From the NCBI GenBank assembly GCA_029248745.1, contig JAQWIT010000020.1, positions 1-64,000 of the forward strand: a stretch of DNA of 64,000 nucleotides. Reading direction: 5' to 3'. This DNA comes from Gammaproteobacteria bacterium (GTDB lineage Bacteria; Pseudomonadota; Gammaproteobacteria; Nitrosococcales; Methylophagaceae). Positions within the stretch are counted from its first letter, which is position 1, and the number at the start of each line of letters is the position of its first letter. Below, piece by piece: positions 49,755 through 52,512 of the stretch. The translations under genes and the position numbers were made by a program. The notes under the pieces are model-generated. The model was not told where the DNA came from and did no database searches. It saw nothing but the letters and a program-made list of their open reading frames with translations.

Positions 49755-50498
49755 TTAACGCAGTGTCCGGCTAAATAAGTTCAGTGCCAGTTGATAACCG
49801 AGTTGAGCTGTTTGGCCATCGTAGCGGCCGTCATCTTCTTCATCACGCATAAAGGCATGAGCAGCATTAAATTCATGCCAAGTGAAGGTGATATCTGTCG
49901 CGCTTAATTCTGCATAAACTTTAGCTAAGCCATCTTTGGGCACATGATTATCTTGCTTGCCCCAAATCATTAACAATTCTCCCTGAATATCATCCAAACG
50001 TTCCATACTGTGTTGTCCCGGTACATTTGGAATAACTTGAATATGTAAGTCGGTAGCATAAAAGCAAGCCGTCCCTTTTACTTCAGGATGTAAAGCAGCA
50101 CGAAACGCCAAATGACCACCAATGCAGAAGCCCATGGCACCGATATGACCATTACACCAGTCCTGTTGTTTAGCAAATTCGACCAATGCTACATTATCAG
50201 AATCATAACCTTGTACATCTTTTGTGTGTTTATCAGCATTGCCTTTTTCACGGCCAGCATCGTCATAGCTCAATACAGTGCCTATAGGGTTAAGTTCGTG
50301 AAACACTTCTCCTACAAGCACAACATAGCCATGGCTTGCCATCAGTTTAGCAGCACGTTCAATAGGTCCTGTTTGTTGGAATATCTCAGAGTAAAACAAA
50401 ATACAAGGATACTGACCCCCAAGAATAGGGCGGTGAATATAAGTACGCATGACACCAGTAGGTGTATCTAGGTCAGCAATATGGCTTTGAATTTTCAT
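49755..50498 (-). CDS. Dienelactone hydrolase family protein
   Basis: 247-aa alpha/beta hydrolase. The nucleophile elbow is GFCIGGHLAF with Cys, as in dienelactone hydrolase rather than Ser. The acid and base follow in IWGKQDNHVPKDG and NAAHAFMRDEE. The N-terminal MKIQSHIADLDTPTGVMRTY is family-typical. The substrate is unknown; no catechol-degradation genes are nearby. Confidence 0.87.
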   Translation of the reverse strand: MKIQSHIADLDTPTGVMRTYIHRPILGGQYPCILFYSEIFQQTGPIERAAKLMASHGYVVLVGEVFHELNPIGTVLSYDDAGREKGNADKHTKDVQGYDSDNVALVEFAKQQDWCNGHIGAMGFCIGGHLAFRAALHPEVKGTACFYATDLHIQVIPNVPGQHSMERLDDIQGELLMIWGKQDNHVPKDGLAKVYAELSATDITFTWHEFNAAHAFMRDEEDDGRYDGQTAQLGYQLALNLFSRTLR

Positions 50499-50799: not shown

Positions 50800-50904
50800 A
50801 ATTAAGTTAGAGGGTGTTAATCAATAAAATGACCATCTTAAACGATCTTTGGCCTGATACTGCAAGAGAATATCGAAGACGAAGACATATACAAGGGTTA
50901 ACAA

Positions 50905-50934
50905 AAAAAGCCCCATCATAAGATGGGGCTTTTT
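50905..50934 (-). terminator. Intrinsic terminator of the DUF1326 gene
   Basis: Perfect 13-bp stem AAAAAGCCCCATC / GATGGGGCTTTTT with an ATAA loop, flanked by T-runs on both strands. It lies 27 bases beyond the DUF1326 stop. Confidence 0.93.
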
Positions 50935-50961: not shown

Positions 50962-51564
50962 TTAAGCAGCGTAAGTAAATGGCGCTGATAAACCTACTTT
51001 TTCTGATTGATGCCAATCATAGCCGTTATCTTTATAGATTGCAGCAACAGATTTGCTAATTGTAACGGGCTCACTAGGCGATACAGCAAGAGGGTGATTA
51101 GAAACGACAACTTTGCCGCCATCTTCGCCTTCAAGTTCTTGCATTGTGTTAGAGCCGAAATCACCCACTTTTAGGTAATGCGTACGGCCTTCTTGAGTGA
51201 ACTCAATAGGCACTTGTTTAACACTCATGATTTCGCCTACTAAACCAGCAATAACAGCTAAGTGCCCACCGTGGTTACCACTCCAGAGTTCAACAATCGC
51301 ATTCTTCTGTTCTTCAGTAGCGCGCTCATCAATATAAAGTGCTAATTTCCAGTTACCATCAGTTAATGAGCCAGGCGAATGTAACCAAGCTGATACTTTA
51401 ATATCATTGAGTTGAACACCATCTAGATGGCCTTCTTCAATATGCCAACCGACGAAAGCTTCACAAAAGCCTTCCGTTGGTGGTGCTAGAAAAATACATG
51501 GGCAGACCAAGTCACAATTACAGGATTCAAAATATTGACCGGTAATTTTCCAATTGTCAGACAT
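50962..51564 (-). CDS. DUF1326 cysteine-motif protein
   Basis: 200 aa. The N-terminal motif YFESCNCDLVCPCIF holds four cysteines (15, 17, 21, 23), followed by FCEAFVGWHIEEGHLDGVQL and NGGH-like NHGGHLAVIAGLVGEIM. DUF1326 proteins are of unknown function. The CxCxxxCxC cluster suggests metal or sulfur chemistry (inference). There is no signal peptide. It is divergent from the DUF2182 gene across 96 bases, with its own terminator, so the two may form a regulated pair. Confidence 0.87.
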   Translation of the reverse strand: MSDNWKITGQYFESCNCDLVCPCIFLAPPTEGFCEAFVGWHIEEGHLDGVQLNDIKVSAWLHSPGSLTDGNWKLALYIDERATEEQKNAIVELWSGNHGGHLAVIAGLVGEIMSVKQVPIEFTQEGRTHYLKVGDFGSNTMQELEGEDGGKVVVSNHPLAVSPSEPVTISKSVAAIYKDNGYDWHQSEKVGLSAPFTYAA

Positions 51565-51660
51565 GTTAACCTCCGTTAGTTAGCGTAAAATAATGCAAAC
51601 ATTATTTTTTGGATACTTGATTGTATACCCATTGGACTCATTTAGGCTAGACGAATATTC

Positions 51661-52512
51661 ATGTTAAACCAAAATAACTCAAGTACAGCTACAGCGATTC
51701 AGACTGGGCCTTTGTCATTAAGAGACAAAGTCATTATTTATGGCGGTGTTTTTCTAGTCAGTCTGGTGGGCTGGGTTTATATGTTCTACATGGGTTGGGC
51801 AATGGAAAACATGGACTTAGTCGATATGTGGATGCCGCCAATGGGTAGAACACGGGCCTGGGATGTTTATGATTTCTGGATGCTATTTGTCATGTGGGCA
51901 GTCATGATGGTGGCCATGATGACACCTTCCGTAGTACCAATGGTAATGATGTTCGCAACCATTAATAAAGGTAAGCAGAAAAAAGGTTTGTCTTATGCTC
52001 CCACCTTTATTTTCTTAAGTGGTTATTTGGTGGCATGGGCATTATTTAGCATCGTTGCATCCGCGATCCAGTATCCCTTACATGTCAGTGGCCTGCTAAA
52101 CCCCATGATGAATAGCCGTAGTTATTTATTGAGTGGTGGAATATTAGTTTTAGCAGGCTTATACCAATGGACACCGCTCAAAGATGCCTGCCTAACAGAA
52201 TGCCGAAGCCCACTGAGTTTCTTAATGACGTCATGGAAGGAAGGGCATTGGGGAGCACTCAGGCTGGGGGTTCATCACGGTCTATATTGTATTGGCTGCT
52301 GCTGGGCATTGATGGCGGTTTTATTTGCCGTTGGCGTTATGAACATGCTCTGGGTATTATTGATTACTATTTTCGTTGTACTAGAAAAAATTGGCCCAGT
52401 TTCATCGAGGTATTTACGGGCCGTGACAGGCCTCATTATGGTCGTTTGGGGTGGCTTTTGGTTGTCTTTGTACCCATGGAAACAATACGACACATGGATA
52501 TTCCTAGTTTGA
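51661..52512 (+). CDS. DUF2182 predicted metal-binding membrane protein
   Basis: 283 aa with about seven membrane segments. A Met-rich helix covers residues 74-97 (MLFVMWAVMMVAMMTPSVVP). A CxxxC lies in KDACLTECRSP (177, 181), and HHGLYCIGCCWALM places two His and three Cys at residues 205-214. Met, Cys and His inside membrane helices are typical of copper or other soft-metal handling (inference). Family function is unknown. It pairs with DUF1326 divergently; such pairs occur in other bacteria to my knowledge. Confidence 0.87.
   Translation: MLNQNNSSTATAIQTGPLSLRDKVIIYGGVFLVSLVGWVYMFYMGWAMENMDLVDMWMPPMGRTRAWDVYDFWMLFVMWAVMMVAMMTPSVVPMVMMFATINKGKQKKGLSYAPTFIFLSGYLVAWALFSIVASAIQYPLHVSGLLNPMMNSRSYLLSGGILVLAGLYQWTPLKDACLTECRSPLSFLMTSWKEGHWGALRLGVHHGLYCIGCCWALMAVLFAVGVMNMLWVLLITIFVVLEKIGPVSSRYLRAVTGLIMVVWGGFWLSLYPWKQYDTWIFLV

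Follow-up and report, generated by a model that had tools for sequence, protein, structure and literature searches.

A DUF1326 protein and a PpoB2-like membrane protein form a widespread gene pair that may relay copper(I)

What might a soluble protein with a dense cysteine cluster and a methionine-rich membrane protein do together when their genes stand back to back? This question is raised by a stretch of 64,000 nucleotides from a gammaproteobacterium of the Methylophagaceae (contig JAQWIT010000020.1 of assembly GCA_029248745.1; the whole stretch is called the window here), in which a DUF1326 gene lies divergently to a gene of the family formerly named DUF2182. An initial annotation made from the sequence alone had taken the two as an undescribed metal or sulfur system that may capture and move copper or another soft metal. 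Its account of the locus was borne out: the genes diverge over a gap of 96 bases, C15, C17, C21 and C23 of the DUF1326 protein fall within nine residues, with C34 as the fifth cysteine, and DUF1326 has its own terminator, a GCCCCATC/GATGGGGC hairpin with a U run after it (−24 kcal/mol, z −7.3, equalled by 0/200 shuffles). The DUF1326 protein matched PF07040 with 175.9 bits (curated cut-off 25), and the membrane protein matched PF09948 with 224.2 bits (curated cut-off 28.7).

DUF1326 and PpoB2, as PF09948 is now named, are a real and widespread two-gene unit. In a class sample of 369 genomes we found DUF1326 in 36 and PpoB2 in 39, with both in 35 (Fisher p 2e-43; because the sampled genomes are related, genome-level p values are too small). 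The sole DUF1326 genome without PpoB2, G312, was 78% complete and had its DUF1326 at a contig start. In a phylum sample of 349 genomes, for which the two lists were compared by hand, PpoB2 occurred in 47 genomes (45 over the cut-off), among them all 40 that contained DUF1326. The co-occurrence that the initial annotation had proposed to look for was hence present in 35/36 and 40/40 DUF1326 genomes. Moreover, the two genes were adjacent in 32 of the 35 class-sample genomes with both families, and the pair was found in Pseudomonadota, Actinomycetota and a haloarchaeon.

The arrangement of the pair varies. Among 44 class-sample DUF1326 loci, 24 were tandem with DUF1326 first, eight divergent, two tandem with PpoB2 first and ten not adjacent; 80 named loci comprised 31 tandem, 30 divergent, one other and 18 without an adjacent PpoB2. 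The divergent layout of the window (8/44 and 30/80 loci) is therefore local to some gammaproteobacteria and not general. In some tandem pairs the stop of one gene and the start of the next share 4 bases (L219, L220, L238 and Cupriavidus). Fourteen of the 18 named loci without an adjacent PpoB2 come from a single lineage, in which TPR genes are the neighbours. Three genomes of this type (G142, G255, G351) carry elsewhere a second DUF1326 of the twin-arginine translocation (Tat) type, which stands beside PpoB2 in two of them; in the remaining one it lies where a contig ends.

One half of the pair has a described relative. Pfam now lists PF09948 as PpoB2, 'Copper chaperone', and because this name goes back to the copper-linked Marinomonas PpoB2, calling the system undescribed was half wrong. 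Marinomonas mediterranea PpoB2 (COG5486, PF09948) is reported as the copper chaperone of the tyrosinase PpoB1 in PMC2855505. For DUF1326 and for the pairing the word stood: one library of open papers, in which DUF names such as DUF899 are searchable, returned no paper for DUF1326, DUF2182, PF07040 or PF09948, and neither a reported function nor a published fold for DUF1326. The window membrane protein shares with Marinomonas PpoB2 the Pfam family and the pairing with an adjoining soluble gene. It differs in that this neighbour is DUF1326 and that the window genome has no tyrosinase match (PF00264), on which ground tyrosinase was rejected as the client in the window.

PpoB2-type genes exchange their partners. 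PpoB2 over the cut-off but without DUF1326 was found in G208 (a fragment), G256, G352 and G367 of the class sample and in G367, G464, G547, G563 and G691 (broken) of the phylum sample, where G377 and G544 had PpoB2 scores under the cut-off. A tyrosinase (PF00264 with DUF7868) immediately precedes PpoB2 in G256, G352, G464 and G547, all without DUF1326, as well as on plasmids of Rhizobium phaseoli, Burkholderia stagnalis, Mesorhizobium and R. leguminosarum. DUF899 takes this place in G367, G563, the second copy in G673 and one Paraburkholderia plasmid. DUF899, at L087, L148, L151 and L258 with a divergent PpoB2, is a third type of partner. On plasmids, we viewed 25 of the 47 listed matches to two DUF2182 queries and four of the 60 listed for DUF1326. 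The 25 DUF2182 places had as neighbour DUF1326 (12), tyrosinase (4), DUF899 (1), an island of copper ATPase and metal regulator (3), a DUF305–glutaredoxin–DsbB–Lgt island (1) or other genes (4). Tyrosinase matches occurred in 6/58 DUF1326 genomes, in 6/6 genomes with PpoB2 over the cut-off but no DUF1326 and in 0/16 genomes with neither family (80 genomes counted by hand, the last 16 chosen by the analyst). The usual partners DUF1326, tyrosinase and DUF899 look cytosolic, the signal peptides of the latter two being judged by eye.

A 95-row tree placed the tyrosinase-linked PpoB2 proteins in one group, the DUF899-linked ones in another and the window row among the DUF1326-linked ones. The tyrosinase-linked group had four rows and a Shimodaira–Hasegawa-like approximate likelihood ratio test (SH-aLRT) value of 100 by a quick method, with the window row outside; two of these four rows are joining long branches, and the tree does not include Marinomonas PpoB2 itself. 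The tyrosinase-linked proteins thus differ from the window protein in forming a separate group, in their residue at C213 and in having no adjoining DUF1326, a comparison that does not include Marinomonas PpoB2.

Which residues are kept in the membrane protein? In 46 relatives, M78, M82, M86 and M87 were present in 46/46 and M83 in 45/46, C181, C210, C213 and C214 in 46/46 and H206 in 44/46. The Met-rich, CxxxC and HH...CxxCC groups of the initial annotation are found in or near predicted helices, as it had stated, but two of their members are less conserved, namely C177 (35/46) and H205 (9/46). Across 27 proteins that cover every partner type, M87, C210 and E242 were present in 27, M86 in 26 and C214 in 24; M87, C210, C214 and E242 are also kept in the tyrosinase-linked relatives. 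C213 was replaced in 8/8 tyrosinase-linked and 3/3 mycobacterial proteins, and C181 in 3/8 of the tyrosinase-linked ones. We derived the topology from charge counts (positive-inside rule), which over the 46 sequences assigned loops 1, 3 and 5 to the outside and loops 2 and 4, like the N-terminus, to the inside. Loops 1, 3 and 5 contain on average 4.9, 2.3 and 1.5 methionines and at most 0.04 cysteines, and cytosolic loop 4 contains on average 1.8 cysteines. These counts suggest a Met-rich outer face and a Cys-bearing inner face. As a side observation, MsrA, a peptide methionine sulfoxide reductase recognised by eye, is encoded near DUF1326 and close to the Met-rich membrane protein in nine named loci (L180–L185, L188, L192 and L204).

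A model of the membrane protein (predicted local distance difference test, pLDDT, 89.5) gave no match of weight to solved structures (best Foldseek E 0.51, best Z 5.1), which by itself is no sign of novelty. Ctr1 is a copper importer with MxxxM in a membrane helix, and MxxxM in a membrane helix likewise links the window protein, as a motif resemblance only, to the copper importers CcoA and CalT. CalT contains MxxxM and HxxxM motifs (PMC6362234). A Pfam scan at E 0.001 gave PF09948 alone for the window protein, and no MFS, Ctr or ATPase domain. By analogy with known MxxxM importers, chemistry and topology suggest that Cu(I) would be captured by thioethers outside and by thiolates inside.

The soluble partner is equally conserved in its soft ligands. 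The window DUF1326 has all five cysteines, which were invariant in 50/50 aligned sequences, taken from loci picked by a pattern that itself includes C15 and C17, and present in 149 of 151 distinct DUF1326 sequences. In 145 of these 149 the arrangement is CxCxxxCPC plus one, and four have another residue in place of the proline. Two copies with partial loss of the cluster were noted, L067 9174-9803 and L246 10594-11709, each accompanied by a further DUF1326 in its own genome or locus. The AlphaFold model (pLDDT 95.2) is predicted to have an acetoacetate-decarboxylase-like fold. Foldseek returned acetoacetate decarboxylases at E 7.5e-5 with template modelling (TM) scores of just 0.37–0.45. In VIA-align, the best acetoacetate decarboxylase match had Z 11.7 and a root-mean-square deviation of 3.2 with 158/200 residues aligned. 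Ranks 1–12 lay at Z 10.3–11.7, and the next row dropped to 8.6. Six of these twelve are titled acetoacetate decarboxylase; the others, MppR and an aldolase-dehydratase, we take to belong to the same superfamily. DUF1326 differs from the superfamily in its five cysteines, in a sequence identity of 3–10% to the first twelve matches and in its lack of a lysine that is invariant or 90% conserved across the 50 aligned sequences. By sequence, no noteworthy match to solved structures was found.

No signal peptide is evident in the window DUF1326. A simple script found Tat-like signals in 5/149 distinct DUF1326 sequences, plus one KR variant, and no other strong hydrophobic N-terminus among the 149. 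The signal-bearing copies are at L070, L082, L107, L155, L197 and L073, and at L197 a second, signal-less DUF1326 adjoins the Tat-type copy. By their signal sequences, these copies show that some DUF1326 proteins probably act outside.

We propose, with a probability of about one half, that the pair is a copper(I) relay in which the PpoB2-like membrane protein serves DUF1326 as a dedicated soluble copper protein. The membrane protein would capture Cu(I) at its methionine-rich periplasmic face, and Cu(I) would move via the MxxxM group of helix 2 and the HxxxCxxCC group of helix 5 to cysteine at the cytosolic face. From there it would be handed to DUF1326 and held by the five cysteines on the beta-rich, acetoacetate-decarboxylase-like fold of this protein. 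DUF1326 would thus be the dedicated partner, in the position held by tyrosinase in the Marinomonas system. By computation, the proposal rests on tight pairing, partner swapping, soft-ligand conservation, the predicted fold and the positive-inside topology, from which we infer copper as the metal, an inward direction and DUF1326 as acceptor or client. Inward delivery is favoured because the usual partners look cytosolic. The copper-handling unit suggested by the initial annotation is hence supported by co-occurrence and context, on a computational basis and with copper as the probable metal.

Several relatives stand in a copper context. Plasmids of M. avium and M. lentiflavum have DUF2182 in divergent orientation to csoR and adjoining DUF1490 and a copper ATPase, and one of these plasmids also carries a multicopper oxidase. 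On another M. avium plasmid a heavy-metal regulator is followed by DUF2182 beside DUF1490 and a copper ATPase. The two csoR islands resemble the mycobacterial cso operon (csoR–Rv0968–ctpV–Rv0970), the last gene of which is presumably a DUF2182 gene, and differ from the window in that no DUF1326 was seen in the stretches viewed. In the copper-induced cso operon of M. tuberculosis, the fourth gene is described as a membrane protein of unknown function that is induced with the operon (PMC4801387). Furthermore, an HMA protein is encoded two genes from DUF2182 in Haloprofundus, and in M. gallinarum copC is followed by DUF1326. The remark that no known copper gene is adjacent therefore holds for the window but not for some relatives. 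The window genome has a copper ATPase and two COX1-type oxidases, and no match to PF07732 (multicopper oxidase) or PCuAC. A multicopper oxidase was accordingly discarded as client, though the sister genome G002 has three PF07732 matches.

A number of points weigh against the relay. We know of no DUF1326 for which metal binding or a phenotype has been established. The experimental copper result belongs to a distant clade, as the tyrosinase-linked group stands apart in the tree and departs at C213 (8/8) and C181 (3/8). The Tat-type DUF1326 copies misfit a purely cytosolic acceptor, and since the PpoB2-like protein has no solved relative, the conduit is unproven. DUF1326 lacks an adjoining PpoB2 in 18/80 named loci, and in the plasmid stretches viewed from S. 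meliloti, S. clavuligerus and M. gallinarum it has no neighbouring PpoB2. Conversely, a second PpoB2 copy in G612 (L167) adjoins no recognisable DUF1326, tyrosinase or DUF899. PCuAC, which we take to be a copper chaperone, was not significantly enriched (20/27 DUF1326 genomes vs 13/27, p 0.09) and is absent from the window genome. Finally, organosulfur contexts are no rarer than copper contexts, with dmdA near the pair in 11/13 genomes of one family. The lone PpoB2 gene at L167 (4610-5620) was noted by eye to lie between seemingly the same flanking genes as a PpoB2–DUF1326 pair in family f215 (L295–L298); a DUF1326 was possibly lost at L167.

How strong is the organosulfur context? On plasmid pMaD9 of Marinovum algicola the order is PpoB2–DUF1326–acyl-CoA ligase–DmdA–alcohol dehydrogenase–SBP56, DmdA scores 680.8 bits against NF009133, and the record annotation assigns the PpoB2 and DUF1326 proteins to the breakdown of dimethylsulfoniopropionate (DMSP). 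Of the 13 genomes of family f219 that have the pair, 11 (all but G670 and G682) encode PpoB2, DUF1326 and DmdA in this order on one strand, with DmdA within 1.7 kb. We take f219 to be a probable roseobacter family because its DmdA is 77–83% identical to that of Marinovum. G225 has the same order with a DmdA at 37.5% identity, and in G108 DUF1326 adjoins a DmdA-like gene (373.6 bits, under the cut-off of 410) and PpoB2 lies 29 kb off. Loci with the pair just upstream of dmdA on one strand are L289–L292, L299–L304, L166 and L279; from spacing and strand, these sets are likely operons. Excerpts of PMC9769926 and PMC12366255 made no mention of the pair as a dmdA neighbour.

SBP56 was present in 22/36 DUF1326 genomes of the class sample vs 27/333 others (odds 17.8, p 4e-13), and by family in 15/26 vs 20/155 (p 2e-6; 181 families tallied by hand). 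A comparison of 27 with 27 genomes gave 16 vs 3 (p 0.0004). SBP56 is missing from 14/36 DUF1326 genomes, so that it cannot be the sole client, and 18 genomes with a score of the MtoX-like class have no DUF1326; one match under the cut-off, in G174, was dropped before the count. An MtoX gene adjoining the pair gave no match in 216 stretches, the Marinovum stretch ending inside the annotated SBP56. In the window genome mtoX (NF052453, 747 bits, cut-off 650) is on a different contig from the pair, and there MtoX has SoxB upstream and MauG-like, thioredoxin-like and SQR-like genes as neighbours (G000:C12, L283 2186-10788; the latter two named from sub-cut-off or Pfam matches). The window organism is thus probably a thiosulfate and methanethiol oxidiser. 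Methanethiol oxidase is reported to need copper and to be periplasmic, with SCO1/SenC and MauG genes beside its own (PMC5739008). Taken together, the genomic surroundings suggest that in some lineages the pair is connected with methanethiol and DMSP metabolism. Such a connection could stem from the copper that methanethiol oxidase requires, from thiol-induced copper stress or from direct participation in sulfur chemistry. The initial hedge between metal and sulfur was apt, since both contexts recur.

The main rival of the relay is a sulfur or thiol module. In this reading, sulfane sulfur, persulfide or methanethiol would be carried on the cysteines of DUF1326 and moved or sensed by the membrane protein, and the likeness to PpoB2 would be just ancestral. 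Besides the dmdA sets of f219, Marinovum, G225 and G108 and the SBP56 enrichment, it can draw on TusA, which adjoins DUF1326 in the window and in four of its five closest named relatives, on a rhodanese gene after one DUF1326 of G091 and on TauE–MBL–rhodanese near the Microvirga pair. On the other hand, SoxB was not significantly enriched (15/27 DUF1326 genomes vs 9/27, p 0.17), the pairs viewed in Haloferax, Streptomyces and Rhodococcus have no directly adjoining sulfur gene, and the tyrosinase and csoR–copper-ATPase partners of the same membrane family concern copper. Since methanethiol oxidase itself depends on copper (PMC5739008), its link with the pair may be a copper link. We regard the sulfur module as unlikely, if the most serious of the alternatives.

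DUF1326 could also be an enzyme, i.e., combine an acetoacetate-decarboxylase-like fold with a new active site and receive its metal from the PpoB2-like protein as tyrosinase does. Its twelve best fold matches are all enzymes, as is tyrosinase, another partner, and the dmdA context suggests a metabolic step. Enzymes of the acetoacetate decarboxylase type use a catalytic lysine, and as no lysine reaches even 90% conservation in the 50 sequences, DUF1326 is not a Schiff-base enzyme of that type. We consider an enzymatic role rather improbable. Least probable of all is export, with cytosolic DUF1326 gathering Cu(I) and the membrane protein moving it out of the cell interior, either to supply enzymes of the periplasm (e.g., methanethiol oxidase) or as detoxification: the window-genome MtoX in its SoxB–MtoX–MauG-like–SQR-like locus has by eye a signal-peptide-like N-terminus, and mycobacterial DUF2182 adjoins copper-ATPase genes, but the tyrosinase partners examined have by eye no signal peptide, so that copper must reach the cytosol there, the Pfam scan gave no ATPase domain, and mtoX loci have their own SCO1 or thioredoxin-like genes (in part from PMC5739008).

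Returning to the copper(I) relay, a wider version is conceivable, which we put forward tentatively and as less probable than the relay itself. DUF1326 would be a new class of soluble copper protein, with a non-enzymatic fold of acetoacetate-decarboxylase-like type, a five-Cys Cu(I) site and its own PpoB2-like conduit. PpoB2-type proteins would be general, partner-specific copper loaders for tyrosinase, DUF1326 and DUF899, and in some marine bacteria the module would serve DMSP demethylation and methanethiol oxidation. Were this so, copper supply would be tied to the organic sulfur cycle. Few uptake systems for copper entry into the bacterial cytosol are described (PMC6769254), and a membrane family that exchanges partners, and of which one member has an experimental link to copper, provides a route that can be tested. 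Moreover, a function would be gained for two uncharacterised genes that lie upstream of dmdA in one family and belong to a sulfur pathway of global importance, and DUF1326 gains a predicted fold.

The features of the locus are compiled in Table 1. The inverted repeat between the two genes has a similar counterpart in the alignment with the two closest relatives and was not seen in four further aligned relatives; it is a weak candidate for an operator.

Table 1. Positions of the gene pair and its elements in the window
Feature	Position	Strand	Remark
DUF1326 protein (PF07040), 200 aa	50962..51564	minus	profile match; fold predicted acetoacetate-decarboxylase-like
Codons of C15-x-C17-x3-C21-P-C23	51496..51522	minus	with C34, the five near-invariant cysteines of DUF1326
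DUF2182/PpoB2-like membrane protein (PF09948), 283 aa	51661..52512	plus	seven predicted membrane helices
Helix 2 M78-x3-M82M83-x2-M86M87 of PpoB2-like protein, two overlapping MxxxM	51892..51921	plus	
C177-x3-C181 of PpoB2-like protein, predicted cytosolic loop 4	52189..52203	plus	loop charge
HH-x3-C210-x2-C213C214 (H205-C214), helix 5 of PpoB2-like protein	52273..52302	plus	
Intergenic region between the divergent DUF1326 and PpoB2-like genes, 96 bases	51565..51660		
Inverted repeat AATAATG-CAAA-CATTATT, possible operator	51589-51606		inside the 96-base intergenic region
Intrinsic terminator of DUF1326	50903..50934	minus	hairpin and U run

A third conserved gene of the system did not emerge, as neighbour clustering over 51 stretches and 80 named loci gave generic or lineage-bound genes only. 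Named by eye, these were ABC-transporter and SDR genes, SDR with a methyltransferase in Nitrosomonas and one Methylococcaceae locus, MsrA in a Thiothrix-like group and TPR genes in another. TusA was rejected as a part of the system: it occurs at 4/80 named loci, all near the window, plus one remote weak match, and is absent beside DUF1326 at L169, though the DUF1326 there is 96% identical to that of the window. The hydrolase beside TusA was likewise set aside (five near loci, or ten with looser clustering). The nearest named records to the window DUF1326 are metagenome-assembled genomes of uncultured Gammaproteobacteria and Piscirickettsiaceae, with best identities of 99, 96 and 87%. Downstream of DUF1326, the window encodes a TusA-like sulfur carrier (PF01206, 50563-50799), a protein of the dienelactone hydrolase family (49755-50498) and, a few genes further, a CNNM/CBS-type transporter (PF01595, PF00571; 48624-49658).
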